Position numbers and translations under genes: made by a program. From Aurantimonadaceae bacterium (GTDB lineage: Bacteria > Pseudomonadota > Alphaproteobacteria > Rhizobiales > Rhizobiaceae), in the NCBI GenBank assembly GCA_947474855.1, contig CANJKV010000004.1:1-64000 (forward strand): a stretch of DNA of 64,000 nucleotides. The letters run 5' to 3'. The notes under the pieces were generated by a model. It was not told the origin of the DNA and made no database searches. It saw only the letters and a list, made by a program, of their open reading frames with translations. The first letter of the stretch is position 1. Each line of letters begins with the position of its first letter. This document shows, piece by piece, positions 45,484 through 60,657 of this stretch.

Positions 45484-46194
45484 TCACGCATGAAGCCGCA
45501 GCAGCCAGTCGCGCAGCGCTCCGGCAGCATCGCGCCAGCGCGGCTCCAGCATCAGCGCGTGGCCGAGCCGCGGCAGGAGCGTCGGGCCGCAGCCGTAGTA
45601 GAGGCCGGTGCGCCAGATCTCGTCGGCGGGAACGATGCGGTCGTCCAGCCCGCCCAGCACGAAGGTCGGCGGAGCGGTCCAGGCAAGCGGCGCGAACGGT
45701 GGCCATCCCTGAAGCTCGGGGCCGATCCGCGGCGACTCGCGTCCGATGCGCGAGGCGAAGCGCTCCAGGTCTTCAGGCGGTAGATCGGGCGAGAACAAGG
45801 CTTCGCGCACGAGATCACGGTCGACGAGCGGGCTCCTGCCCGAGGACATGGCGAGCACGCTCGCGAACAGGTGCGGCGACAGGATCCCCATGCGCAGCGC
45901 CGAGGGTGCGAGCCCCCAAGGGGGCACGGACGCCAGCAGTGCCATGCCCGCCGCTTGGCCTCCGCCTTGGATGAACTTCTGCACCACCGCTCCGCCGAGC
46001 GAGTGACCGACGAGCACGATCGGTCCCTCGATCAGGCTCGCCAGCACCGGGTAGGAGCGAAGTCGCCTCGGAAAGCCGCCCGCTCGGCGGCTTCCTCGCT
46101 TGGCAAGCTCTCGCATCCTGGCGACGCGTTCCCTCCAGGCAGCCAACCCGTCAGTAGCCCTGGTTCTGCATCCGTGCGAAGCCGCGGAACCCAC
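45484..46194 (-). CDS. alpha/beta-hydrolase, probably 5' truncated
   Basis: The conserved part is an alpha/beta-hydrolase: nucleophile elbow VLVGHSLGGAVVQKFI, catalytic Asp region FVLGGLDDRIVPADE, and His in PRLGHALMLEPRWRD. Normally about 90 residues, including the HGxx oxyanion strand, precede the elbow. Here only some 45 residues do, and the first 15 overlap the 3' end of the DUF4145 gene and look unrelated. The gene therefore seems to have lost its 5' end, and the true start, if any, may be internal (ATG 46116). Activity is doubtful. Confidence 0.6.
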   Translation of the reverse strand: MGSAASHGCRTRATDGLAAWRERVARMRELAKRGSRRAGGFPRRLRSYPVLASLIEGPIVLVGHSLGGAVVQKFIQGGGQAAGMALLASVPPWGLAPSALRMGILSPHLFASVLAMSSGRSPLVDRDLVREALFSPDLPPEDLERFASRIGRESPRIGPELQGWPPFAPLAWTAPPTFVLGGLDDRIVPADEIWRTGLYYGCGPTLLPRLGHALMLEPRWRDAAGALRDWLLRLHA

Positions 46195-46924
46195 CCTCGA
46201 TCATGAGCGCCCCTTCGGTCTTCGCCACCCGATCCGCAAGCTCCGAAAGATCGACGGAAGCTTCGGCGTCGAACAGATCCTGCAAGGCATCCTCGAGGAG
46301 CATGAACATCTTCACCAACGTCAATCTATCGACCTTCCCTCCATGGCTCGCAGAATTCCCGACGAGCCGAAGGGCGCCCAACGTCCTAGAATGTTCAAGA
46401 CTGCGACCCGAGAACAAGATCAGAAGCTTGTGAAGGTTCTTATTGCCATTGCCAGGCTCATGATGCGCAATGATCTTCTCGGCGCAGGTGCGAAGCCTGT
46501 TTGCGCATGCGGCCGGATCGACCCAGAACAGCGAGAACGCCGTCAGCAACGTCGTCCTTATCTCCAAAGGCAGCGTGTGCGGCATCCGAATGATGGGAGG
46601 CGCCGGCGTCATGCCCAGGGGAACGAGCACCTCGGTTCCTCCGTCGCCGTAACAGGCGAGATCTTCCCTCTCCCATGTCTCGCCCGAGACCGCCACGACC
46701 TCTCCGCAATCGGCGACGTCGCAGATCAGGCTGCACGTGAATGTACCGCTCCCCTCCCTCGGGCAGTCGTACTCCTCCTCGCACCTGGGAAGGAGATGCC
46801 GCGCCACCCTCATGTCAAGGCTGTCTGCCACCAGCCTGACCTTTCCCGTCTCGCATCTGGGGCAAGGAAGCGGAGGCACCTCGGTTGTCCTGTAAAACTT
46901 CCTCCAAAGGGATTCGTCGACCAT
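46151..46924 (-). CDS. DUF4145-domain protein
   Basis: A 257-residue protein. The N-terminal half has paired Cys (PCPRCETG near residue 20, RCEEEYDC, SLICDVADCGE) that may bind zinc. The C-terminal half matches DUF4145: LRTCAEKIIAHHE, then LGALRLVGNSASHGGKVDRLTLVKMFMLLEDALQDLF. This domain is found in restriction-modification and other phage-defence contexts as well as alone. The ATG at 46924 is preferred (GAGGG just before); a longer frame to 47119 has a poor N-terminus. The 322 bases between this gene and the IS5 element hold nothing else. Confidence 0.7.
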   Translation of the reverse strand: MVDESLWRKFYRTTEVPPLPCPRCETGKVRLVADSLDMRVARHLLPRCEEEYDCPREGSGTFTCSLICDVADCGEVVAVSGETWEREDLACYGDGGTEVLVPLGMTPAPPIIRMPHTLPLEIRTTLLTAFSLFWVDPAACANRLRTCAEKIIAHHEPGNGNKNLHKLLILFSGRSLEHSRTLGALRLVGNSASHGGKVDRLTLVKMFMLLEDALQDLFDAEASVDLSELADRVAKTEGALMIEGGFRGFARMQNQGY

Positions 46925-47246
46925 CAAACCCTCGCCTAGCAGCGGTTCCACGAGATGGATGATGCCGATCGATAGTTGCAGCTCGTTGCTCGAAACCCGG
47001 AGTATTTTACCGGGAACGCTCTTTCGAGCGGGCGCGTCGACGGCGATCCGCAGCCCGGCGCCGCCTTTACCCGGTCCGGACGCTCCTTCGTCGGCAACGA
47101 CGTCGATGCAGCAGATCATGGATCGTCACGGTCCGCCCACCGTATCGCCCTGTGGAAGAATGAAGCGCCCTCGCAGTTCGGATCACCACGCAACCATGCC
47201 AGGATCTGGCTCCGATGCGATATCTTGCCGCGCAGGAGCGTCCTAA

Positions 47247-48154
47247 GAGTCCGTCCGGAAACTCATTCTGCTGAAGCGATGCGGCGGATGAGGACGTTCG
47301 CTGCGGCGGCATGGAGGAAGGCTGTCGACGAGGCGATCGTTGTTTCGGCATCCTTCCAGAGCCGCCGGTTGCGGCCGAGCCAGGCGAAGGTTCTCTCGAC
47401 CACCCAGCGCCTCGGCTGCACGGCGAAGCCGATCTGGCCGGGCTTTGGTCGCACGATCTCGACCGGGACCGGGCTGGTCCGGCGGACCCTTTCGCCCTGA
47501 TAGCCTCGATCTGCGAAGATGCGCTCGACGAAGGGGAAGCGGCTCCGCGATGCGCGGGCCAGGGGACCGGCGCCGTCACGGTCCTGGACCGAGGCTGCGC
47601 CAACGACAACCGTCAGCAATCGGCCGTCGGTATCGACCAGCGCGTGGCGTTTGCGACCGACGATCCGCTTGGCGCCGTCGTAACCGCGAGGCCCGCCGCT
47701 CTCGCAGGTTCGTGCGGTCTGGCTGTCCATGACCGCCGCGCTGGGTGAAGCTTGGCGGCCGCATCGTTCCCGGTCGGTCAGAACAAGCCGATGGCCGAGG
47801 CCCTCGAACAGGCGTTCGTCACGGAACCGGCGGAACCAGTCCCAGACCGTGCTGCGCGGCGGGAAGTGGTCCGGCAGCATACGCCATGGGCAACCGGAGC
47901 GCAGGATGAACAGCACCGCGTTGATGATCTCGCGCATCGGCCAAGCCCGAGGCCGGCCGGTCATGTCCGCTCTTGGCAGCACGGGTTCGATCAACGCCCA
48001 TTCCGCGTCGGTAAGGTCGCTCGAATAGCGCAGATGGTCTCTGTTATGCTGGGCGCGGGTGGCTGGCGTCCACATGCCTGGCTCCACGGAAGGCTTCGAA
48101 CACCTCCAAGGAATCAGCCGGATGCCGGCCACTCAACCCTTTCCGGACGGGCTC
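47247..48154 (-). mobile_element. complete IS5-family insertion sequence, 908 bp
   Basis: The left terminus GAGTCCGTCCGGAAA (47247-47261) and right terminus TTTCCGGACGGGCTC (48140-48154) are 15-base inverted repeats with one mismatch. Both ends are flanked by TAA (47244-47246 and 48155-48157), a 3-base target duplication as expected for the IS1031-like group of IS5. The single transposase gene is intact, so the element could still be active. It lies just upstream of the decayed lipoprotein gene. Confidence 0.9.
47263..48075 (-). CDS. IS5-family transposase
   Basis: A 270-residue DDE transposase. The N-terminal DUF4096 domain is seen in LRYSSDLTDAEWALIEPVLP and AVLFILRSGCPWRMLP. Catalytic Asp is in AVMDSQTART near residue 113, the second Asp in IFADRGYQGE, and Glu in RRWVVERTFAWLGRNRRL near the C-terminus. 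The start at 48075 leaves a short 5' region inside the terminal repeat. No frameshift is visible, so the enzyme should be functional. Confidence 0.92.
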   Translation of the reverse strand: MWTPATRAQHNRDHLRYSSDLTDAEWALIEPVLPRADMTGRPRAWPMREIINAVLFILRSGCPWRMLPDHFPPRSTVWDWFRRFRDERLFEGLGHRLVLTDRERCGRQASPSAAVMDSQTARTCESGGPRGYDGAKRIVGRKRHALVDTDGRLLTVVVGAASVQDRDGAGPLARASRSRFPFVERIFADRGYQGERVRRTSPVPVEIVRPKPGQIGFAVQPRRWVVERTFAWLGRNRRLWKDAETTIASSTAFLHAAAANVLIRRIASAE

Positions 48155-50142: not shown

Positions 50143-50736
50143 TCATTCCGGCCAGTTCGCCGGCCTGCCTATAAGCCCGCGTTCGGGCATCGAGCGAAGC
50201 CAAGCGACGAACGTCTCGACCTCCGGCGGGGGGAAGCGAACCTTGTGCCCTTGCGTGGAATGCACGAACTGCGAGAACCGGTCCGGGACCGACGGTCCGT
50301 CCTTTCCCCAATAGGCATAATCGCGTCCGAGCAACACCCTGCTCGTCGAACCCGTGTCGCGCTTCAAGTTCGGAAGACTGGGGCTGCCGTCCGCTTCGCT
50401 GTGGAACGAGTCCGCCTGGATCCAGGAACCGTCGACATCGCGATGATAGATGTTGTCGCCATGCCGCTGCATCAGACTGCCGTTCATGACCGGACGTCGA
50501 CGCCGGAATCTCGGATCGCTCCAATAGCGATCGAAGTCCACGATCTCGTCGATGCGCATCCAGTACGACAGCCTGCCGTCGAGGCGGTTAGGCGCCGATC
50601 CCGTTCCGATCACATAGTCGCCCAGCTGCGCGAAGAGCCTGATCCGCGGCTTGCATGCCGCCAAGGAGCAGACGCCGTGAAACGGATTGGGTGCGAAGCC
50701 CAGGTCGTGATCGATGACATAGGTGAAGAGGCGCAT
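50143..50736 (-). CDS. Nmad2-like (nucleotide modification associated domain 2) protein
   Basis: A 197-residue protein whose opening, MRLFTYVIDHDLGFAPNPFHGVCSLAACKPRIRLFAQLGDYVIGTGSA, is typical of the Nmad2 family, first predicted from gene clusters that modify or process nucleotides in DNA. RLSYWMRIDEIVDFDRYW and the later GRDYAYWGKDGPSVPDRF segments continue the pattern. It starts 7 bases after the acidic-linker protein and forms a two-gene minus-strand unit, divergent from the MazG/UDG/phosphoesterase genes. The biochemical role of the family is unknown; recognition or transfer of a modified nucleotide is the usual guess. Confidence 0.75.
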   Translation of the reverse strand: MRLFTYVIDHDLGFAPNPFHGVCSLAACKPRIRLFAQLGDYVIGTGSAPNRLDGRLSYWMRIDEIVDFDRYWSDPRFRRRRPVMNGSLMQRHGDNIYHRDVDGSWIQADSFHSEADGSPSLPNLKRDTGSTSRVLLGRDYAYWGKDGPSVPDRFSQFVHSTQGHKVRFPPPEVETFVAWLRSMPERGLIGRPANWPE

Positions 50737-50743
50737 CGCGCGA

Positions 50744-51244
50744 TCAGCATCTGTTGCGCTTCGTCGGCACCGCGCCCCGCGCTCCACCGTCGGGGCGGTG
50801 CCAACTCTCGCCCTCGCCGCGGACGATCTCTCCGAAGCTGCGGGCATCCCATGGGACACACCCGGAACCGTACTCGTCGAGCACCCGGGGAAGCTCGCCG
50901 ACCTGCCGCGACGGATGCCATATGCCGACGACCCTGGCGCCGCGTCCGGCGGCCTGCCTGGCGGCAGCCTCGACGGAACCGTCGAGATCCTCCCCCACGA
51001 CGATGACGCAGACTTCGTCATCCTCCACGGCCGAAGAGTCTTCGGCGTCGTCGGTCTCCCCTTCCGTCTCATCGTCGCTGGGCCGCTCGTCGATCTCGTC
51101 GTCGTCCGACGCGTCCTCCCGGTCGGCTGCGGGATCGAACCCGTGGCCGGCCTCCTCGGCGATCTCGAGCCCCGCCTCCTCAAGGAGCTCGACGAGCTTC
51201 TCGGGATCGGGGCCGGCATGAAGGATCCGAATCCTGGCGATCAT
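50744..51244 (-). CDS. Rossmann/TIR-like protein with an acidic linker
   Basis: A 166-residue protein. Residues 1-36 (MIARIRILHAGPDPEKLVELLEEAGLEI) form a small beta-alpha unit. Residues 39-78 are almost all Asp/Glu/Ser/Thr. Residues 79-145 resemble the core of a TIR or nucleoside-deoxyribosyltransferase-like Rossmann domain: VCVIVVGEDLDGSVEAAARQAAGRGARVVGIWHP, ending FGEIVRGEGESW. The assignment is by pattern only. An overlapping 64-codon frame (51435 to 51241) ends in an ATGA overlap with this start and could be a short leader gene, but it would overlap the divergent MazG-like gene. The partner is the Nmad2-like gene. Confidence 0.6.
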   Translation of the reverse strand: MIARIRILHAGPDPEKLVELLEEAGLEIAEEAGHGFDPAADREDASDDDEIDERPSDDETEGETDDAEDSSAVEDDEVCVIVVGEDLDGSVEAAARQAAGRGARVVGIWHPSRQVGELPRVLDEYGSGCVPWDARSFGEIVRGEGESWHRPDGGARGAVPTKRNRC

Positions 51245-51399
51245 GAACGTTCCTTTGATGACCGGCGAGTCATGCAGAGGTGGTGACGAGCACCCACAAT
51301 ATGCAATAGCCGGGTCTCCTGCATCCGGTTCGCTCGTGGAACCAGCAGATCATAGCCGCGCTCCGGATCCGGAACGTCGGAAACCTCGATGGGGAAGGC

Positions 51400-52560
51400 A
51401 TGGCGAGTTCGCCCTTGCGTTTCGACGACTACCAAGCCTCAGCCGCGTCGACCGACAGGACGCGTTCGAAGGCCTCCGAATTCGACCTGCCGATCCTGGG
51501 TCTGTTTGGGGAGACCGGGAGCCTTCTCGCCGAGGTGAAGAAGCGCCAACGCGATTCGGCGGCACACGGGGGCTATCGCGACCGAGTGGTCGAGGAGATG
51601 GGCGACGTGTTGTGGTATCTGGCCGTGATCGCGGACCGGGTTGCGATACCGTTGTCGCGCCTCGCGAACCATTCGTCCAAAGACGGCAGGACGTCGGATC
51701 AGATGAGGCACCTCGTCGATCTGCAGCCGCAACGTTCGCTCGATCTCGACAGCCCCACGGTCGCCTTCGAGCGGACGCTTCTAAGGCTGGCCGGAGCCGC
51801 AGGCAGACTCGCCGAGCATGGTGCCCGGAAGCACGGCGATCAAGCCGATCTGGAAGCGCTCCTGGCGGAGATCCTTCGTCTCCTGGTGGAAGCGGCGAAC
51901 GAGGCGGGCGTGACTCTGGACGAGGCAGCCCGGGGGAACATGGCGAAGGCGGCCGACCGATGGGCGTCGGAGCGAACCTTTCCGTTGCCGTTCGACGAGG
52001 CATTCCCCTTCGAGGAGCGTCTTCCGCGTTCGTTGGACGTCGACGTGTTCGAACGCGAGGCCGCCAACGGCAAGCACTACGTCGTCCAGCGTTGCAACGG
52101 CGTCTTCATCGGGGATCGTCTGACGGACAACATCGTGACGCCCGACGATTATCGCTTCCACGACGTCTTCCACTACGCGAATGCCGCGGTTCTCGGCTGG
52201 TCACCGGTGACGCGTGCGTTGCTGAGGCTGAAGCGGAAGAGCGAGACGAAGATCGACGAGGGCCAGGACGGCGCGAGAGCGATCATTATCGAGGAAGCGA
52301 TCTCCGCCTACGTGTTCGGCGAGGCGAAGAGAGAAGCGTTCTTCGAGGATGCATCGGAGGGCGACCTGGGCTTCTCCCTGCTGAAGTCCGTTCGCCAGTT
52401 CGCCAGAGGATACGAGGTCGATCGCTGCCCCCTGTGGCTGTGGGAGAGGGCGATCCTGCAGGGCTGCGCCGCCTTCCGCTTCCTGCGCCTTCGTCGTCGG
52501 GGAACACTCCGGATCGACCTGCCCGCCCGGGAATTGCGGATCGAGGAGATGCCGGCTTGA
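51400..52560 (+). CDS. MazG-like nucleotide pyrophosphohydrolase with a C-terminal extension
   Basis: A 386-residue protein. Residues about 25-85 carry the MazG/all-alpha NTP pyrophosphohydrolase motif: LGLFGETGSLLAEVKKRQRD with Glu38 and Glu45, then VVEEMGDVLWYLAVIADR with Glu65/66 and Asp69, which bind Mg. A long helical middle follows. The C-terminal half (about 205-386) is unusual, with FHDVFHYANAAVLGW and IIIEEAISAYVFGEAKRE, which could be a second metal site. MazG enzymes hydrolyse (d)NTPs, including modified or alarmone nucleotides. It leads the plus-strand arm of the cassette and ends in a TTGA overlap with the glycosylase-like gene. Confidence 0.78.
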   Translation: MASSPLRFDDYQASAASTDRTRSKASEFDLPILGLFGETGSLLAEVKKRQRDSAAHGGYRDRVVEEMGDVLWYLAVIADRVAIPLSRLANHSSKDGRTSDQMRHLVDLQPQRSLDLDSPTVAFERTLLRLAGAAGRLAEHGARKHGDQADLEALLAEILRLLVEAANEAGVTLDEAARGNMAKAADRWASERTFPLPFDEAFPFEERLPRSLDVDVFEREAANGKHYVVQRCNGVFIGDRLTDNIVTPDDYRFHDVFHYANAAVLGWSPVTRALLRLKRKSETKIDEGQDGARAIIIEEAISAYVFGEAKREAFFEDASEGDLGFSLLKSVRQFARGYEVDRCPLWLWERAILQGCAAFRFLRLRRRGTLRIDLPARELRIEEMPA

Positions 52561-53231
52561 CGCCGTCCTCGTTCGTGGATGCCATGGCCGGGCTCAGATT
52601 CCCGGATGTCTTCAACCCTTACGCGCAAGTATGTGAAATCCACGATCGTTCCGATGCTCCGGAGATTCGTCGAGACAACCTGCGGCGGGTGGTGGAAGCG
52701 GCCATCGCGGCGGAGGTCGAGACCTTCTGGATCGCCCGGGATCTCGGCTACCGTGGCGGACGACGTACGGGCCTAGCGCTGACCGACGAGGCGCACCTGC
52801 CTCTTCATGCGGGCATCATGGGGATCCCATCGCTTCGGCAAGCGACGGTGGGGCCGGCGGTGCGGGAGCGCACGGCGACCGTCATCTGGAACATGCTGCG
52901 CGAGTTGCGGCGGCCGGTGTTCCTCTGGAACGTGTTCCCCCTTCACCCTCATTCCCGGGGCGATCCGCTCTCGAACAGATGCCACACCAGGGCGGAGCGC
53001 GAGGCATGCCGGGCGGTCCTGGACTGGCTGCTTTCCACGCTTCGTCCGCGGTCCGTCGTGGCGATCGGACGGGACGCGCAGGATGCGCTCGTCGATCTGG
53101 GAGTCCGCTCGACGCCGGTTCGTCACCCGAGCTACGGTGGTCAGACCGAGTTCGTAGCCGGAGTGCGCGAACACTATGGCCTGCCTCGAGGCTTGGACGC
53201 GGGGCGTCAGCTCTCGATCTTCCAGTCGTGA
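52557..53231 (+). CDS. uracil-DNA-glycosylase-like protein
   Basis: A 224-residue protein with UDG-superfamily features: FWIARDLGYRGGRRTGLALTDE near residues 57-78 (catalytic loop), LWNVFPLHPHSRGDPLSN near 123-140, VVAIGRDAQDAL near 168-178, and the DNA-inserting RHPSYGG near 189-195. The TTG at 52557 is chosen as start because GAGGAG lies 9 bases before it and it overlaps the MazG stop as TTGA; ATG 52584 is the alternative. The usual water-activating Asp/Asn cannot be assigned with certainty. It may excise an altered base or act on the nucleotides handled by its neighbours. Confidence 0.72.
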   Translation: MTPSSFVDAMAGLRFPDVFNPYAQVCEIHDRSDAPEIRRDNLRRVVEAAIAAEVETFWIARDLGYRGGRRTGLALTDEAHLPLHAGIMGIPSLRQATVGPAVRERTATVIWNMLRELRRPVFLWNVFPLHPHSRGDPLSNRCHTRAEREACRAVLDWLLSTLRPRSVVAIGRDAQDALVDLGVRSTPVRHPSYGGQTEFVAGVREHYGLPRGLDAGRQLSIFQS

Positions 53232-53256
53232 GCGGCAAGCTGGAAATCGGGACGAC

Positions 53257-55407
53257 ATGACGGACGCTACCTTCCTGCACCTGACGGACGCCCACCTTTC
53301 GACGACGGGCGTTCCGTTCCGCATGGACGACCACAAGGTGCGGCTTCCCAGGCTCGATCATCCGGATCGTGCTCAGGTCCTCGATCTGCTGCTCTCGCGG
53401 GTGGCCGAAAGGCTCGACGCCGCCGGCCGTCGGATCGACGCGGTGCTGTTCTCCGGCGACGCGCAGGAACGGGGCGGCCCGGGCGGCCACCGTCGCGTCC
53501 TGGACATCCTGCTCCATCGCCTCGCACGGTGCGGGATCGGCCCGGAACGCATCGTCGCCGTCCCCGGCAACCACGACGTTCCGAAAGGCAGCGACCCAAG
53601 TTCGACCACCCGCTACTCGGACTTCGTCGCGGCGTGGAAGGCGGCCGGATGCGTCGTTCCTTGGCTCGACGGCGAGCCGCTCCCCACGCAGGACGAGCTC
53701 CATCGCTTTCGACTGCTGGCTCCGGATCGCTCGTGGGTTGTGCTGCCGCTGAACACCAGCAACTGGTGCCAGGTGCGGGCCGAGTTGCCGTCCCCGCTGA
53801 AGGAAGCCTGGCCGCTGATACCCGATCTGCTGGAGGCCGCAGGCGCCGGGCAGCGCCAGGTCCTTCTCGATCAGCTGGAAAAGCTCGTAAGCTACGATGT
53901 CGCTCGCGTGTCGGGTGAGCAGATGGAGATCATGCGGGAGGTCGCACGATCGACGCCGGCTCCTGCGTCGGGATCCCAGACGCGGATCATGGTCATGCAT
54001 CACCATCTCCGCAACCCGGATCTGCGCGAGGAGATCCGCCCCTTCGCGGATCTCGTCAACGTCGAGCTGGTAAGACGCTTCATCCGGGAGAACCGGATCA
54101 ACGTCGTCGTCCACGGACACAAGCACCAACAGCAGGTGGGTTACGACCACGATGCCGAGGGCGCCGCGCACCGTCGCACGCTCCTGGTGTCCGGCGGCAC
54201 CTTCGACGAAGGGCGGGAGCGGGATGCCGCCCGCATCCTGACCCTTGGCGGCCTTCCCAATCTCGCCGCGCTGACCGTCACGACGTTCTCCCTGCCGAGA
54301 TCCGGATCGAACCTCGACGCGATCGAGGACGCCCCGCGACCGCTGTGGTCCTGCAGCGAGGCGGGCGGAGCCCCGACGGTGGTGCAGGGTTCGGATCTCA
54401 ACGAGGTGTACGAACGCGCATGCGACGCCGCCACCAACGACGCGAAGGGCGGCATCCTCGTCGTTCATCTCGACCTTCCCGACGACCAACTGGCCCGGAT
54501 CCTGGTTCCGAAGTCCTATCCCTACGTCGACGGGCTGGACGAGGATCGACGGGAGGAATGGTTCGGAGAGCTGGTATCATGGTGGCAGCTCGACCGTTCG
54601 AAGCTGGAGAGCCGCATACCCTACATCCACGGCAACCGTCTTCGACGGTATGCGGGGGGGTTCGACCAGATCGCCAGGATCGTGCGACTCCTGCGGGGCC
54701 CGGCCACGACGAAGGCGATCGCCGTCCTCGTGGATCCGCTGCGCGACTTCGACCCGGAGGGACGAAAGGAGCGCTTCGCCTCGTTCTGCCTCGTGGAGTT
54801 CAAGCGACGGGAAGATGGCGACCGGAAGCTCGTGGACGCGATCGCCTTCTATCGGACGCAGGAGTTCGCGAAGTGGTGGCCGATCAACGTGGCCGAGCTC
54901 CGGCACCTGCAGCGGGAGATCGGCGGTCAGGTCGGACTGGAGGTCGGAAGGATCACGACGATCTGCGCCGACGCCCGCGTCCAGGCGCCCTCGCCTTCGG
55001 CCGTGACGATGCCGATCCTGGACCGCTGGCTGGATCAGGCGCCGGAGCGCCTGCACCTACTTGCCCAGCTTCTCGTCCAAGGGGCGCCGGACGCACCGAG
55101 ACGTGATCGCGCATTGGCCGACTGGAGGCTCGCCCTCGTCGAGCTGCGCGCATCGACGAAACGGTACAATCCGGATGGCAATCCCCTCTCCGTGGAAGGC
55201 CTATCCGTCCTGGGGTCCTTCGTCCGGGAGTCGGGAGGTCCCGAGGCGGGCAGGCTCGCAGGGCTCCTCGAGGATCTGGCGACGATCAACGACTCCATCG
55301 CCCGGACGACGGAGAGGGAGGCTTTCGAGCGGCTTGCGGCATCGGCTGAACGCCGCATCCAGGAACTTGAGAGCTTCAGGCCGACCACGGCTCCTGCCGG
55401 CCATTGA
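53257..55407 (+). CDS. metallophosphoesterase-thymidylate-synthase-like fusion protein
   Basis: A 716-residue two-domain protein. Residues about 1-330 are a calcineurin-like phosphoesterase with all metal motifs: Asp11 and His13 in LTDAHLS, GD at 67-68, GNHD at 104-107, HHH at 248-250 and GHKH at 287-290. Residues about 380-600 resemble thymidylate synthase: IHGNRLRRYAGGFDQIARIVRLLR, then Cys511 in the FASFCLVEF strand at the place of the catalytic Cys, and FYRTQEFAKWWPINVAELRHLQ, with Arg533 and Asn544 at nucleotide-binding positions. The usual Asp of the RSxD motif is Glu536. It lies 25 bases after the glycosylase-like gene. Hydrolysis of a phospho-compound plus a dUMP/dCMP-type transfer is possible. 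Confidence 0.78.
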   Translation: MTDATFLHLTDAHLSTTGVPFRMDDHKVRLPRLDHPDRAQVLDLLLSRVAERLDAAGRRIDAVLFSGDAQERGGPGGHRRVLDILLHRLARCGIGPERIVAVPGNHDVPKGSDPSSTTRYSDFVAAWKAAGCVVPWLDGEPLPTQDELHRFRLLAPDRSWVVLPLNTSNWCQVRAELPSPLKEAWPLIPDLLEAAGAGQRQVLLDQLEKLVSYDVARVSGEQMEIMREVARSTPAPASGSQTRIMVMHHHLRNPDLREEIRPFADLVNVELVRRFIRENRINVVVHGHKHQQQVGYDHDAEGAAHRRTLLVSGGTFDEGRERDAARILTLGGLPNLAALTVTTFSLPRSGSNLDAIEDAPRPLWSCSEAGGAPTVVQGSDLNEVYERACDAATNDAKGGILVVHLDLPDDQLARILVPKSYPYVDGLDEDRREEWFGELVSWWQLDRSKLESRIPYIHGNRLRRYAGGFDQIARIVRLLRGPATTKAIAVLVDPLRDFDPEGRKERFASFCLVEFKRREDGDRKLVDAIAFYRTQEFAKWWPINVAELRHLQREIGGQVGLEVGRITTICADARVQAPSPSAVTMPILDRWLDQAPERLHLLAQLLVQGAPDAPRRDRALADWRLALVELRASTKRYNPDGNPLSVEGLSVLGSFVRESGGPEAGRLAGLLEDLATINDSIARTTEREAFERLAASAERRIQELESFRPTTAPAGH

Positions 55408-55983: not shown

Positions 55984-56071
55984 ATTGATCGAGGCGGATC
56001 TGGAGAACGGCCGCAGAAGCGGGCGAGCCACGCGCGACGTCGCGCCGTCCGAACGGGATGATGCCGGATGA
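55691..56071 (+). CDS. small HTH regulator of the IetAS-type operon
   Basis: A 126-residue protein. Residues about 22-45 (NKAEAARMLGVARPEIYRYLAG) form a Fis/Cro-like HTH, and the following RPHRAKRERLEAYL is basic. The C-terminal half has a helix (VSELLNSLRFVIRLIEADLENGRR) that may dimerise. It ends in an ATGA-type overlap with the AAA ATPase gene. Its own promoter and coding region contain repeated TGATACG sites, so autoregulation and control of the toxin-like operon are likely. Confidence 0.7.
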   Translation: MDTSDPFVLALGAFVGSAAKGNKAEAARMLGVARPEIYRYLAGVRPHRAKRERLEAYLATAAGRSPSGGEPAGTSAGAGLDDTVNVSELLNSLRFVIRLIEADLENGRRSGRATRDVAPSERDDAG

Positions 56072-57129
56072 GCCGCACCGACCTTCTTCTACAGCTTGTC
56101 CGCGCAGGCGCGTCCAACGACCACGCGATGCTGGAGCGCACCGTGGCGGCGCTGGTTGCGGAAGCTCGTGCGAAGCAACACCATACCCTGGCGGACAGGC
56201 TGACGAAGGTCCTCGGGGACAGCATCGACCTTCGGGCTCCTCGATCCGTCGGAGGGTCCTCCTTGCCTGACAAGATCCGTGAGCTGCTCGTGGAGCGTCC
56301 GGCGAGGCGATCGCTCGACGATCTCGTGCTGCCTGATGCGGTCCAGACGGAAACGTGCGAGTTCGTCGAGGAGCAAAGAGGGGCGGACCTTCTGCGATCC
56401 TATTCCCTGGAGCCTCGTCACAAGGTGATGCTCGTCGGGCCGCCCGGCAACGGCAAGACCACCCTTGCGGAAGCGATCGCTTTCGAGTTGTCGGTCCCCC
56501 TCTACGTCGTGCGCTACGAGGCGATCATCGGCAGCTATCTCGGCGAGACGGCGAGCCGCCTGAAACGTGTGTTCGATTTTGCGCGGACCACGCCGTGCGT
56601 CCTCTTCCTCGACGAGTTCGACGCGATCGGCAAGGAGCGTGGAGACGTCCACGAGACGGGCGAGATCAAGCGGGTCGTGTCGTCCCTCCTGATGCAGATC
56701 GACGAGCTTCCATCCTACACGATCGTCATTTGCGCCACCAACCATCCCGAACTTCTCGACCGGGCGGTGTGGCGGCGCTTCCAGATGAGGCTCGAGCTGC
56801 CACCTCCGACCCCGGCGCAATTGGCGCGGCTGGTCGCGGACGCGGAGCGAACGCTGGGAAAGCGGTTGGGCGTCGCCCCGCAGTCCGTCGCCAGGGCGCT
56901 GAAGGGCGCGAGCTTCGCGGAAGCGGAGGAATTCATCCTTGATCTGCGACGCCGGATGGTGCTCTCAGGCACGGGTGAACCGACGGTGCAGATCGTAAAG
57001 CGTCGGCTGAAGTTCTGGCGCGAGCGGTTCGCCCGCGCCCTCGGAGAAGACACGAACTACGATGGCCCGGAGCCCGATCATCCCCCTCGCACGGACCGGG
57101 ACGGGGAAACGACTGACGAGGAAGCGTAG
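56068..57129 (+). CDS. ietA: AAA ATPase, IetA-like
   Basis: A 353-residue AAA+ protein. Walker A is GPPGNGKTT (124-132), Walker B is VLFLDEFDA (178-186), sensor 1 is ATN (223-225), and Arg residues at 236-237 (WRRF) suit an arginine finger. The first 80 residues are helical. Adjacent genes for an AAA ATPase and a subtilisin-like protease are the hallmark of IetAS, first described on an Agrobacterium Ti plasmid as a stability/incompatibility toxin-antitoxin pair (IetA the antitoxin) and later reported as antiphage. The protease gene starts 68 bases before this gene ends, an unusually deep overlap. Confidence 0.82.
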   Translation: MSRTDLLLQLVRAGASNDHAMLERTVAALVAEARAKQHHTLADRLTKVLGDSIDLRAPRSVGGSSLPDKIRELLVERPARRSLDDLVLPDAVQTETCEFVEEQRGADLLRSYSLEPRHKVMLVGPPGNGKTTLAEAIAFELSVPLYVVRYEAIIGSYLGETASRLKRVFDFARTTPCVLFLDEFDAIGKERGDVHETGEIKRVVSSLLMQIDELPSYTIVICATNHPELLDRAVWRRFQMRLELPPPTPAQLARLVADAERTLGKRLGVAPQSVARALKGASFAEAEEFILDLRRRMVLSGTGEPTVQIVKRRLKFWRERFARALGEDTNYDGPEPDHPPRTDRDGETTDEEA

Positions 57130-59695
57130 CATCCCGCTCCCGAAGACGACCTTCGGGTCGCAGGCGGCTCGTCTCGGGCCGCGGCTCGATGATCGTCTCG
57201 CCCGCATCGTCTCCGGCCGCGACATCGAGGTGGACACCAATCCGACCGCCTTCGCTCCCGAACGGGTCCTGGTCTTCGAGATCCTCGGCGAACTCGGCGA
57301 CTTCGCCAAGGCGGCTCGCAGGATCGGGCTCGAGTGGCTCGCGGAGCGCATCGTCACTCTCCTGGATCCCGAGATCGTGCTTCGCACGGCAGGCGACGGC
57401 GAGGACGGCGACGTGGACGACGAGGTGGACGGCGTCGACTTCGTGCTCCAGGAAGACGAGAAGCCTTCGGAGGCCCCGGGTCGCCTCTACTTCGCCATGC
57501 CGACCCTTGAAGCCTTTCGACGGTTGAAGTCGCTGTGGGACCGATTCAAGCTCGACGGAAGTTTGCCGTCTGGCCATTCGGATTGGCGCGACCTCTTTCA
57601 TCGGCTGCACGACTTACGCGCCTGGGGCCCTGCGGACCGGGTGGCGCCGCACACCCAAACCCATCTCGGTCGCCAGCTCGCCGAAGAACCGGCCTCGCGC
57701 CTCAACGTGGAACTCGACCTCTGGTACCGCGCCGACGAGCGGTCTCGCTCGGCGGCGTTCGAACGCATGCGCTCGCAGCTATCCGAGGTCGGCGGCATCC
57801 TGCTGGACAGTGCCGAGATGCCCGACGTCCACTACCATGCGGCGCTGGTCAGCCTTCCACCCGGCGGGGCCGCCGAACTTGTTCAACTGCATGGCCCGCT
57901 CGCATCTTCCCGCGAGGTGATGTCGGTCCGTCCCCAGTCCATGTTCCGCGCAGTCCCGTCCGACAACGAGCTCCAGGAGGACACCGCTGTCGACCGCGTG
58001 CTCGCCGAACGTGACGGAAGGCCGTCGCTCGCGGCCCTCGTCGACGGCCTTCCCGTGGAAAACCACGTGCTGTTGCAGAACCGCCTCGACGTCGTCGACA
58101 TCGGCGTCGTCAGCGCCTCGGTCCCGCTTCCACGCCGCCGGCACGCCACGGCGATGGCGTCCTTGATCCTGCATGGCGACCTGCAGGACGGCGAGCCGCC
58201 GATCGACCGGGTCCTGAAGGTCGTTCCGATCCTTAGCCCGACGGCCGACGGCACGGAGCAGCCCCCGTCCGACAAACTCGCCGTCAAGCTGATATGCGAG
58301 GCCATCGAGGATCTGAAGAACGGCCGCGACGGCAACGGACCGAGCGGGCGGGACGTCATCCTCGTCAATCATTCCGTCTGCGACGAGGCGAATCCCTTTA
58401 CGGGTGCCATGAGCCACTGGGCAAGGGTACTCGATCACCTCTCCTACAAGCATGGCATCTTGTTCGTCGCCAGCGCCGGCAACATCCGGAGCGGCTTCCC
58501 GGTCTCGGCATATGCCACGGTCTCCGAGTTCCATAAGGCGGATCCGAAAACCCGGCGGAGCCACATCCTGCGAGCCGTAGACGCCGCGAAGGCCGAGCGC
58601 GGCATGTATTCTCCCGCAGAGTCGTTGAACGCCCTCACGGTCGGGGCGGCGCACGCCGACGGATCGACGCGTCCGGTCCCGTCGAACATCGTGGACCCGT
58701 TCGGCGAGATGCGGATGAGCAACCTCGGTTCGCGCGTCGGCCTTGGATTCGGACGTGCGGTGAAGCCAGACGTCCTGATGCCGGGTGGACGTCAGGCGGC
58801 ACAAGGCAGCCTCACTCCGCTTTCCGTTCGCGGCTTCGACGCCGGGGCATGTTTCGGGCAGCTGGCAGCCGCGCCGGACCAACACGGCGGATCGTTCGAC
58901 AGGACCTTTTTCACATCCGGCACGAGCAACGCCGCGGCGCTCGCGACGCGGGCGGGCCTTCTGATAGCGGACGCGCTTGACGAAACATACGAGGATCGCG
59001 ACCTGCCTTGGTACCGGCAAGCAGAGGCGGCCTGCATGCTGAAAGCGCTCGTGGCGCATTCCGCAGCCTGGGGCGCCGCTGGCGAGGAACTCGACTCCCT
59101 GCTTCCTCCGACGGAGAGCCGCAGGCACGTGCCGCGCCGATCGAACATATCCCGCTATCTCGGATATGGCCTAGGGGATGTCGGAAGGATCATCGACGCG
59201 TCCCAGCACCGCGTGACGCTCCTCGCCACGGATCTCATAAGGAAGAACCAGCGTCACGAGTATCGCATTCCTCTGCCCTCGGAACTGGCGAGCCGCACCG
59301 ACGTGCGTCGCGTCACCGTGACGCTGGGTTGGCTCACCCCGCTGTTTCATCAGAGAACGAACTATCGGGCCGTAGCCCTTCAAGTGGTCGGGTCCGACGG
59401 ATCGAGCCACCTTTGGGAAGGGGTGAAGCGCGTTCCGCTGCAACCTCCCCTGGGAGCGACGACCCGGGGCACACTGTTCCATACGATCTACGAAGGCGAT
59501 CGAGCCGTCCCATTCGGGCCCGACGCGGAGATCCTGCTCAACGTGCAGGCTTCGTCGAGACTGACCGGCCCGATCTCCAGGGAAAACGTGCCCTATGCAC
59601 TGGCGGTCTCGCTCGAGGTCGCGCCGAGTCTGGATGCCGACATCTTCACTTCTGTGGCGAACCGCCTGCGGCCGCCGATCGGAGCCCGTGCATGA
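57062..59695 (+). CDS. ietS: subtilisin-like serine protease, IetS-like
   Basis: An 877-residue protein with an S8 protease domain from about 320 to 640. The triad is Asp328 (ALVDGLP), His361 (RRRHATAMA) and Ser622 (TSGTSNAAA); Asn474 in FVASAGN is the oxyanion residue. The first 300 residues are a non-peptidase region with an acidic stretch (DGEDGDVDDEVDG, 112-124), and a beta-rich C-terminal domain follows 660. No signal peptide is seen, so it acts in the cytoplasm. It is the toxin or effector partner of the AAA ATPase. Its stop overlaps the next gene as ATGA. A start downstream of the ATPase stop is possible but would remove conserved-looking sequence. Confidence 0.85.
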   Translation: MARSPIIPLARTGTGKRLTRKRSIPLPKTTFGSQAARLGPRLDDRLARIVSGRDIEVDTNPTAFAPERVLVFEILGELGDFAKAARRIGLEWLAERIVTLLDPEIVLRTAGDGEDGDVDDEVDGVDFVLQEDEKPSEAPGRLYFAMPTLEAFRRLKSLWDRFKLDGSLPSGHSDWRDLFHRLHDLRAWGPADRVAPHTQTHLGRQLAEEPASRLNVELDLWYRADERSRSAAFERMRSQLSEVGGILLDSAEMPDVHYHAALVSLPPGGAAELVQLHGPLASSREVMSVRPQSMFRAVPSDNELQEDTAVDRVLAERDGRPSLAALVDGLPVENHVLLQNRLDVVDIGVVSASVPLPRRRHATAMASLILHGDLQDGEPPIDRVLKVVPILSPTADGTEQPPSDKLAVKLICEAIEDLKNGRDGNGPSGRDVILVNHSVCDEANPFTGAMSHWARVLDHLSYKHGILFVASAGNIRSGFPVSAYATVSEFHKADPKTRRSHILRAVDAAKAERGMYSPAESLNALTVGAAHADGSTRPVPSNIVDPFGEMRMSNLGSRVGLGFGRAVKPDVLMPGGRQAAQGSLTPLSVRGFDAGACFGQLAAAPDQHGGSFDRTFFTSGTSNAAALATRAGLLIADALDETYEDRDLPWYRQAEAACMLKALVAHSAAWGAAGEELDSLLPPTESRRHVPRRSNISRYLGYGLGDVGRIIDASQHRVTLLATDLIRKNQRHEYRIPLPSELASRTDVRRVTVTLGWLTPLFHQRTNYRAVALQVVGSDGSSHLWEGVKRVPLQPPLGATTRGTLFHTIYEGDRAVPFGPDAEILLNVQASSRLTGPISRENVPYALAVSLEVAPSLDADIFTSVANRLRPPIGARA

Positions 59696-60657
59696 ACGAC
59701 GATTTCGAAGAAGGCGCATCCCTCGCCTTCGAACCGGAAGAAGCCATCGCTGCGTATCTCGACGACATCGAGGACCTGGAAGCAGCGGCAGCGCTTCGAC
59801 GCAAGGTCGTCCGCGGCCAGAGCATCGCGAGCCTGCTCGGTCTGGAATACGCGATCAGCGCTCATCACTACGGATACATCTCCGAGTCGGAAACCGGTCG
59901 AGCTCCGATCGTGCCGGCGACTTCGGTCAAGCCGGACCCCGACCTCGTCAACACTGCGGTGAAGGTGACCCTGGAGAAGTTCTACGTCGAATCGTACCCC
60001 GGCATCGGTCGGCATACGATCCTTCTGGAGGTCCTTGGACGCAATCAGGCCGGAAGCGAAGCGGAGGATCTGCGCTTCACCTCGGTCGTGGAGGCGAACG
60101 ATCGCGACAGCGTCGCCATCGCTGGCATCCCGCTGTTCGTAGGCCTGCGGGTGCCGCCCGACGGGATCGCCTTCAAGGGTCGCACGATCGGCCTGAGGTC
60201 GAGCGGCGACGCCATGATCGTCGACGCCCTCAAGAGTGGCGCCTTCCAAAGCGGAATGAAGCTGCTCGGACATGTGCAGCCCGTAATACCGCAGTTCGTC
60301 CAGTTGGCGGCCGGCGTCACCGCTGGCCTCGCCAAGCGACGGCTCAACAAGCAGATCCAGACGTTCCAGCTCGGGCTGGACTTCTCCGACCAATCGACGG
60401 CTCCCTCGCTGCGCCTCGGCGCGTACGTGGTCGTGCAGGCCCCGGACGACGGCTCCTGGTCGTGGTCGGACTGGATCTATGATTTCGATCGGTCGAACGT
60501 GGTTCACGCCGAAACGGGAAACCAGGCGCCATATAACACGATGGTGTTCCGCATCTCGAAGAGCCACGTCGAGACTCCGGCATCGGCGACACGGTCGGAC
60601 GATCAGGACAAGGCACGTCCCGCCCGGAGGCGATCGACGAAGAGCATGCCGGCTTGA
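59692..60657 (+). CDS. uncharacterised third gene of the IetAS-type operon
   Basis: I do not recognise this 321-residue protein. An acidic N-terminus (1-35) and helix lead to a beta-rich region (VKVTLEKFYVESYPGIGRHTILLEVLGRNQ, 90-119; IPLFVGLRVPPDGIAFKGRTIGLRS, 146-170). A moderately hydrophobic stretch at about 192-214 (LGHVQPVIPQFVQLAAGVTAGLA) precedes a basic segment, then more strands and a basic tail. It is coupled to the protease by ATGA, so it is very likely part of the same system. It could be a protease substrate, a sensor, or an effector released by cleavage; none of these is shown by sequence. Confidence 0.65.
   Translation: MNDDFEEGASLAFEPEEAIAAYLDDIEDLEAAAALRRKVVRGQSIASLLGLEYAISAHHYGYISESETGRAPIVPATSVKPDPDLVNTAVKVTLEKFYVESYPGIGRHTILLEVLGRNQAGSEAEDLRFTSVVEANDRDSVAIAGIPLFVGLRVPPDGIAFKGRTIGLRSSGDAMIVDALKSGAFQSGMKLLGHVQPVIPQFVQLAAGVTAGLAKRRLNKQIQTFQLGLDFSDQSTAPSLRLGAYVVVQAPDDGSWSWSDWIYDFDRSNVVHAETGNQAPYNTMVFRISKSHVETPASATRSDDQDKARPARRRSTKSMPA

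Follow-up and report, generated by a model that had tools for sequence, protein, structure and literature searches.

Do the five closely packed genes of a divergent cassette in an Aurantimonadaceae bacterium constitute a single system, and on what substrate would such a system act? The cassette lies in the window examined here, a stretch of 64,000 nt (assembly GCA_947474855.1, contig CANJKV010000004.1, positions 1–64,000 of the forward strand), and encodes an Nmad2 protein and a TIR-like protein on one arm and, on the other, a MazG protein, a protein of the uracil-DNA glycosylase (UDG) superfamily, and a calcineurin-like phosphoesterase fused to a thymidylate synthase (TS)-like domain (phosphoesterase-TS; Table 1). 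A sequence-only reading of the window had taken the five genes together as a candidate antiphage system based on base modification or nucleotide depletion. The set is one state of a modular family and not an obligate five-gene unit, with the phosphoesterase-TS an optional component, and a base-modification role is favoured because the enzyme that acts on DNA is a UDG in some cassettes and a 5-hydroxymethyl-deoxyuridine (5-hmdU) DNA kinase in others.

Amongst 66 loci with either DNA-acting enzyme, 47 possess a SMUG1-like UDG, 19 possess a 5-hmdU DNA kinase, and none possess both, such that a single DNA-acting enzyme per locus is the rule in the loci examined. Most of these cassettes also encode a MazG protein with a MazG_C domain (42 of the 47 UDG loci and 10 of the 19 kinase loci). 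The same alternation is present in the 38 loci with a phosphoesterase-TS (the window, six plasmids, and L014–L044 from a scan of genome contigs; L012 and L013, the opposite ends of a single plasmid, were counted once), where a UDG occurs in 24, a kinase in 12, both in none, and neither in two (L032 and L043), with MazG_C accompanying all 24 of the UDGs and five of the 12 kinases. The contig scan returned 49 loci, of which the 31 from L014 to L044 are real relatives and 29 have both parts of the fusion (L039 has the phosphoesterase part only and L043 the TS part only), while L045–L062 match the phosphoesterase part only, weakly, and are excluded from all counts. On a tree of the phosphoesterase-TS (37 rows, L043 left out), the UDG/kinase label changes six times (bootstrap range 6–6), with at least three changes forced by starred branches, and placing the kinase rows in a single clade is rejected (approximately unbiased test, p-AU 3e-66). 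L027, with a kinase, and L030, with a UDG, are sisters with a support of 100/100. The exact number of switches is soft because the tree program flags long branches.

The partners of the DNA-acting enzyme also swap. A second module consists of either TIR and Nmad2 (8 of the 38 phosphoesterase-TS loci) or XRE, ImmA/IrrE, and a TS-like protein (29 of 38), with both together only rarely (L030 and L044) and neither in L032, L040, and L043; the TIR + Nmad2 and XRE + ImmA/IrrE pairs look like alternative triggers. All five families of the window are found together in L010, L011, L021, L028, L029, and L030, and the grouping exceeds chance because the same set recurs in these six other loci. A fixed five-gene system can be rejected, as the partners swap, 30 of the 38 phosphoesterase-TS loci lack Nmad2/TIR, and the phosphoesterase-TS is missing from most of the MazG_C/UDG cassettes examined. 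The pairings that do recur across loci are MazG_C with UDG and Nmad2 with TIR, which a smaller share of the loci combine with the phosphoesterase-TS, and the co-occurrence that the sequence-only reading asked for is upheld at this level and not for an obligate set of five.

A class-wide draw of 385 genomes, including the window's own, does not take the phosphoesterase-TS as its anchor; 20 regions were retrieved from it (G463 and the Nmad2 contig of G668 are outside those 20). The UDG was found in 11 genomes, Nmad2 in 13, and the kinase in seven. The UDG and Nmad2 share seven genomes compared to 0.4 expected (Fisher p 2e-9, with species not independent) and lie ≤3 kb apart in six of the seven, while Nmad2 and the kinase share three genomes. 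The 20 regions contain ten UDG loci (L117, at 98 bits, counted amongst them) and seven kinase loci, none with both enzymes, and MazG_C accompanies eight of these UDGs and five of these kinases. TIR + Nmad2 occurs in seven regions and XRE/ImmA-IrrE in six, never both, and each trigger module was seen with each DNA-acting enzyme (four combinations, at 5, 2, 3, and 3).

Plasmids offer a similar view. Plasmid records were matched by the UDG (45), MazG (34), Nmad2 (16), and the TIR-like protein (1); read from the listed rows, a MazG match adjoins the UDG in 23 of the 28 UDG records of ≥160 bits and lies within a few kb of Nmad2 in 11 of the 16 Nmad2 records. Thirteen plasmid UDG loci (L063–L075, including the distant UDG loci L074 and L075) all have the UDG, with MazG_C in ten and the kinase in none. 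A dCTP deaminase is encoded near the UDG in L069, L070, L071, and L072, with MazG_C also in L069, L071, and L072, where the deaminase was confirmed as PF22769; it accompanies a kinase in L123 and a phosphoesterase-TS in L030, and some cassettes with it are without a phosphoesterase-TS. Besides the dCTP deaminase (PF22769), sister cassettes hold further enzymes of the deoxyuridine pathway, namely a thymidylate kinase (PF02223) and additional TS-like proteins. In L064 (2952–5835), a thymidylate kinase lies between two TIR-Nmad2 pairs, beside MazG and UDG, and in L073 (5464–5778) a DUF4031 protein (PF13223) is encoded directly upstream of MazG_C, near the position held by the dCTP deaminase in some cassettes.

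Such enzymes could serve to deplete the nucleotide pool. The dCTP deaminases are a known antiphage depletion family. In an abortive infection of this type, MazG, the phosphoesterase, the TS-like protein, and the dCTP deaminase would drain deoxynucleoside triphosphates (dNTPs) and the UDG would merely clean up misincorporated uracil, an explanation to which the conserved ligands of the MazG and phosphoesterase domains and the deaminases of sister loci lend some weight. It is nonetheless unlikely, as depletion needs no DNA-acting enzyme, yet a UDG or 5-hmdU DNA kinase is found in 36 of the 38 phosphoesterase-TS loci, and TS and thymidylate kinase are anabolic.

The MazG protein of the window passes the cut-offs of both of its domains (PF18722 MazG_C, 254.2 bits vs 29.7; PF03819 MazG, 25.2 vs 22). 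The UDG matches PF03167 (36.5 bits vs a cut-off of 24.3), and its residues D62, N125, and H190 are invariant in 17 of 17 aligned rows. The AlphaFold2 (AF2) model of the UDG (predicted local distance difference test, pLDDT, 88) has SMUG1 as its nearest fold (Foldseek E 8e-9), and comparisons with VIA-align returned a Z of 16.9 for SMUG1 (189 residues, root-mean-square deviation 2.8), 15.1 for SMUG2, and 13.8 for family 4; the 47 top-scoring rows (Z 12.2–16.9) are solved UDGs without exception. The modelled fold would make the window UDG nearest to SMUG1. SMUG1 removes 5-hydroxymethyluracil.

A glycosylase of this kind may instead have a role in restricting phages that already carry hydroxymethylated or hypermodified pyrimidines, with the UDG excising phage bases as Brig1 and Brig3 do, Nmad2 aiding recognition, and MazG and the phosphoesterase destroying modified nucleotides. 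This is possible, if on the doubtful side. It draws on the SMUG1-like predicted fold, on a reader-like predicted fold of Nmad2 (ASCH at the top, with the 5-hydroxymethylcytosine (5hmC) endonucleases VcaM4I and PD-T4-3 amongst the weak matches), and on the precedent of Brig1 (PMC11078745) and Brig3 (PMC13160076), described as UDG-superfamily glycosylases that protect against phage and make abasic sites in phage DNA with modified bases. Brig1 and Brig3 are reported to act on (glucosyl-)5hmC, and Brig1 to have a family-4 UDG as its best structural match, whereas the cassette UDG is SMUG1-like by its model and has nucleotide enzymes as partners. Restriction leaves unexplained both the TS, dCTP deaminase, and thymidylate kinase genes of sister cassettes and the presence of a 5-hmdU DNA kinase at the place of the glycosylase. 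The 5-hmdU DNA kinase is an enzyme that phages use for self-modification.

The phosphoesterase-TS combines a phosphoesterase (PF00149 Metallophos, 46.5 bits vs a cut-off of 21.5) with a TS-like domain that matches TIGR03283 at residues 428–575 (57 bits, below the NCBIfam cut-off of 174.55); PF00303 was not reported in the Pfam scan. Matched by spacing, C511, R533, and N544 are presumed to correspond to C146, R166, and N177 of E. coli ThyA (the catalytic cysteine, the phosphate arginine, and the pyrimidine asparagine). In the alignment of relatives, R533 and N544 are invariant over the 37 rows that cover these positions, and C511 is a cysteine in 30 of 37, with replacements by serine (L025, L037), threonine (L027, L030), or valine (L040, L042, L043). 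The phosphoesterase metal ligands that were checked are kept in all 37 rows with a residue there, except for H250 (histidine in 35, glutamine in two). In L011 (8318–10504) and L034 (7243–9418) the gene is disrupted, either by a stop codon in frame or by a break in the reading frame.

A tblastn search with the window phosphoesterase-TS matched six plasmid records, all from the Hyphomicrobiales, and four of 397 genomes of the order: the window's own, G194 (a strong but partial match covering residues 372–707 in two pieces), and two weak matches. Alpha- and Betaproteobacteria, Myxococcus, and Actinomycetota are amongst the record titles of the set of loci. MazG_C and UDG adjoin the fusion gene on five of the six plasmids, while the sixth, from R. 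rosettiformans, has MazG_C, a 5-hmdU DNA kinase (PF18723, 369 bits), TS-like proteins, and a thymidylate kinase and no UDG there. The phosphoesterase-TS, UDG, and Nmad2 of the window had no tblastn match at E 1e-5 in 50,697 phage records, which argues against a phage origin.

The host possesses its own full-length ThyA (420 bits) on another contig and four more UDG-superfamily genes besides that of the cassette, and the cassette TS-like and UDG copies are therefore extra; neither ThyX nor the 5-hmdU DNA kinase (PF18723) had a match in this draft genome (415 contigs, 95% complete, 4.4% contamination). A housekeeping TS or UDG is correspondingly unlikely. More broadly, it is improbable that the cassette carries out nucleotide or DNA housekeeping on accessory DNA (dUTP hygiene, repair) with no link to phages. 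All of the enzyme domains do have housekeeping relatives, but the families are rare (as the class draw indicates), patchy, and often plasmid-borne, the window cassette adjoins an IetAS pair, and defence-type gene names are annotated near the phosphoesterase-TS on six of six plasmids (a count without a control set): CHAT, caspase, and AbiE in L007, caspase in L008, caspase and ABC-three-component in L009, SIR2 with AAA in L010 and L013, and an S8 peptidase with an ATP-binding protein in L011.

Nmad2 matches PF18753 (211.2 bits vs a cut-off of 26.1), and its AF2 model has a Zymomonas mobilis ASCH protein as the top Foldseek match (E 6e-4, probability 0.99), with EVE, YTH, the two 5hmC endonucleases named above, and ATP sulfurylases amongst the weaker rows. 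With VIA, 49 of 50 listed rows name the YTH domain (Z 6.9–7.7), a uniform list at a Z common for unrelated models. Nmad2 is a candidate base reader with a weak predicted likeness to ASCH/EVE/YTH folds. Its neighbour has no Pfam match and is weakly matched by PADLOC ThsB over its C-terminal half (residues 91–166, 41.6 bits). In the alignment, 13 of 13 intact TIRs have the N-terminal FISH region and the active-site glutamate of the (W/F)E motif, neither of which is present in the window protein; FISH is lost in this protein and eight others, of which those of L010, L011, and L029 still have, read by eye, a glutamate at the (W/F)E position. Judged from the alignment, the gene encodes a degenerate ThsB-type TIR, and neither an active ThsB nor a deoxyribosyltransferase is supported, so that of the 'Rossmann/TIR-like' and deoxyribosyltransferase labels of the sequence-only reading only the TIR kinship stands. 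Its assignment of all five products to nucleotide or base chemistry is likewise wrong for this decayed TIR and doubtful for the reader-like Nmad2, for which the model is moderate; the Nmad2, MazG, UDG, and phosphoesterase-TS labels hold, the TS-like part by the TIGR03283 match below cut-off. Aspartate and glutamate account for 39% of residues 1–80 of the TIR-like protein, and a pseudo-TIR with such an acidic part, encoded next to a UDG, might inhibit by mimicking DNA. L021 has a second TIR-Nmad2 pair, the TIR of which is intact, and in L066 (3902–4483) a SLOG cluster3 protein (PF18180) is encoded next to TIR genes; this locus also has a CBASS phospholipase upstream and, on the downstream side of its UDG, a SIR2 gene.

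The reading tentatively favoured is that the window has one assembly of a modular antiphage cassette, which would make a 5-substituted deoxyuridine, most likely 5-hmdU, or sense it, or do both, and would target this base where it occurs in DNA. As the nucleotide enzymes (MazG, TS-like, dCTP deaminase, thymidylate kinase) recur while the DNA-acting position is filled by a SMUG1-like glycosylase in some loci and by a 5-hmdU DNA kinase in others, 5-hmdU or a close relative in DNA is the simplest common substrate, and synthesis by the cassette is favoured over pure restriction or pure depletion because the partners are anabolic. MazG would cleave (deoxy)nucleoside triphosphates to deoxynucleoside monophosphates, supplying deoxyuridine monophosphate (dUMP), on which the TS-like domain of the fusion would place a C5 group while the phosphoesterase trims nucleotides; the dUMP-holding residues of the TS-like domain are kept, as is its catalytic cysteine in the majority of members. 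MazG_C or a cellular kinase may then recharge the modified nucleotide for entry into replicating DNA, where the SMUG1-like UDG would excise the modified base to leave abasic sites that halt phage replication, a 5-hmdU DNA kinase taking the place of the UDG in sister cassettes. Nmad2 and the degenerate TIR would provide the trigger or control, a role that may fall elsewhere to XRE, ImmA/IrrE, and TS. A bolder and rather doubtful version, 'poison and excise', has the infected cell use MazG and a TS-like enzyme to make its own modified thymidine analogue, 5-hmdU or a similar one, which passes into replicating phage DNA, where the glycosylase or the interchangeable 5-hmdU DNA kinase attacks it, Nmad2 reads it, and the acidic pseudo-TIR restrains the glycosylase as a DNA mimic. 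If the host does make the base, this would represent a new immunity logic in which viral DNA is poisoned with a removable base.

Several observations weigh against the synthesis and sensing of such a base by the cassette. The TS-like domain does not reach the cut-off of the canonical thymidylate synthase family, and the C511 variants suggest that not every member retains TS chemistry. The phosphoesterase-TS is present in 0 of the 20 class-draw regions and is absent from plasmid records other than the six. A first UDG alignment matched nothing at E 0.01 amongst PDB sequences, and a UDG profile searched against them to E 10 yielded 27 weak matches, to family 4 and UdgX and none to SMUG1, while the Nmad2 model (pLDDT 75) has a best Z of 7.7, a level reached by unrelated models. 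MazG_C accompanies only 10 of the 19 kinases, five of the 28 stronger plasmid UDG records have no MazG match, and the class draw includes one contig-end UDG locus without MazG_C and another with MazG_C and no trigger module. Partnerless loci account for 3 of 10 for Nmad2, 1 of 10 for the UDG, and 2 of 7 for the kinase in that draw, and the UDG and kinase do share two of the 385 genomes, on separate contigs.

The phage 5-hmdU hypermodification pathway consists of a TS-type dUMP hydroxymethylase, a kinase, and a 5-hmdU DNA kinase. Sister cassettes share with it the TS-like, deoxynucleoside monophosphate kinase, MazG, and 5-hmdU DNA kinase (HMUDK) families, but are bacterial and plasmid- or island-borne. 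The TIR-like gene has kin amongst the ThsB-type TIRs of Thoeris, and intact relatives beside Nmad2 match PF08937 at 74–84 bits; in the window, however, the TIR motifs are lost, the partner is Nmad2, and no SIR2/SLOG match indicative of ThsA was found amongst the ten window proteins scanned. The N-terminal phosphoesterase of the fusion resembles the DS-9 anti-phage phosphoesterase (NF053862, 68 bits), but membership is rejected by the cut-off of 420 bits, and the fusion has a TS-like C-terminus with no HAD-phosphatase match amongst the proteins scanned.

The closest published vocabulary is that of DefensePredictor (DeWeirdt, Mahoney, and Laub, Science 2026, PMC13092281), in the text of which thymidylate synthase and 5-hydroxymethyluracil kinase are amongst the newly validated defence domains and the DS-8 and DS-9 metallophosphatases are required for defence. 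The Fig. 3C legend lists dNMPk, 5hmdUk, and NMAD, and the text and Fig. 6F legend give aGPT-Pplase, MazG, MazG-C (called a predicted nucleotide kinase), dUTPase, NMAD, and UDG as predicted domains, with Burroughs 2015 NAR (PMC4678834) cited for related predictions. Compared by text and legends and not gene for gene, these systems have the same domain vocabulary as the cassette family, and the UDG/kinase substitution, the phosphoesterase-TS fusion, and the degenerate TIR do not appear in those parts of the paper. The sequence-only reading did not know the combination as a named system, a view that holds in part: parts of the cassette are predicted or validated in 2024–2026 papers, and the substitution pattern was not found in the literature searched, judged mostly on titles and abstract openings, such that an earlier description is possible. 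The family joins pieces published separately, namely UDG-type antiphage glycosylases, TS and 5-hmdU-kinase defence genes, Nmad domains, and TIRs. The rule of one DNA-acting enzyme per locus suggests which substrate the two enzymes may share and opens the function of Nmad2 and MazG_C to direct tests.

Table 1. The cassette of the window and the adjoining defence pair.
Feature	Coordinates	Strand	Basis
Nmad2 protein, 197 aa; candidate modified-base reader, predicted PUA-like (ASCH/EVE/YTH) fold	50143–50736	−	PF18753
Degenerate ThsB-type TIR (putative), 166 aa; N-terminal half acidic, without the TIR motifs	50744–51244	−	PADLOC ThsB; alignment
155-base intergenic region between divergent arms	51245–51399		
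MazG pyrophosphohydrolase + MazG_C, 386 aa	51400–52560	+	PF03819 + PF18722
SMUG1-like (predicted) uracil-DNA glycosylase superfamily protein, 224 aa; TTG start	52557–53231	+	PF03167 + fold
Calcineurin-like phosphoesterase fused to thymidylate-synthase-like domain, 716 aa	53257–55407	+	PF00149; TIGR03283
IetA-IetS defence pair; neighbour, outside cassette	IetA 56068–57129, IetS 57062–59695	+	PADLOC

All five open reading frames (ORFs) of the sequence-only reading were confirmed in place, as was the tight packing it described: the TIR-like gene is the first of the minus arm and is followed after a 7-base gap by Nmad2, the MazG stop overlaps the UDG start via TTGA, and 25 bases separate the UDG from the phosphoesterase-TS. 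A short divergent region is indeed present between the arms; its shared control is unproven because a scan for sigma-70-type sites found no promoter-like site in it, and it aligns poorly to its counterparts in L021 and L063. The IetAS-type neighbour was borne out by PADLOC (IetA 472 bits, IetS 826 bits). GC content falls from ~0.70 (0.66–0.72) over the first 18 kb of the window to ~0.65 (0.62–0.66) from 36 kb on, cassette included, which is compatible with an acquired island.

Other features of the window and its relatives include an ORF downstream of IetS (59683–60657) that neither Pfam (to E 1) nor PADLOC (to E 0.1) matches and, within 46151–48132, a DUF4145 protein with a weak PD-T7-4 match (21 bits) and an ORF (47263–48132) that has the look of an IS5-type transposase. 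In L007 (7506–9205), an ImmA/IrrE protease is fused to a chagasin-type inhibitor (PF09394) beside a papain-like C1 peptidase (PF00112), an arrangement that constitutes an inhibitor/protease pair, and a C1 peptidase is present in 21 of the 38 phosphoesterase-TS loci.

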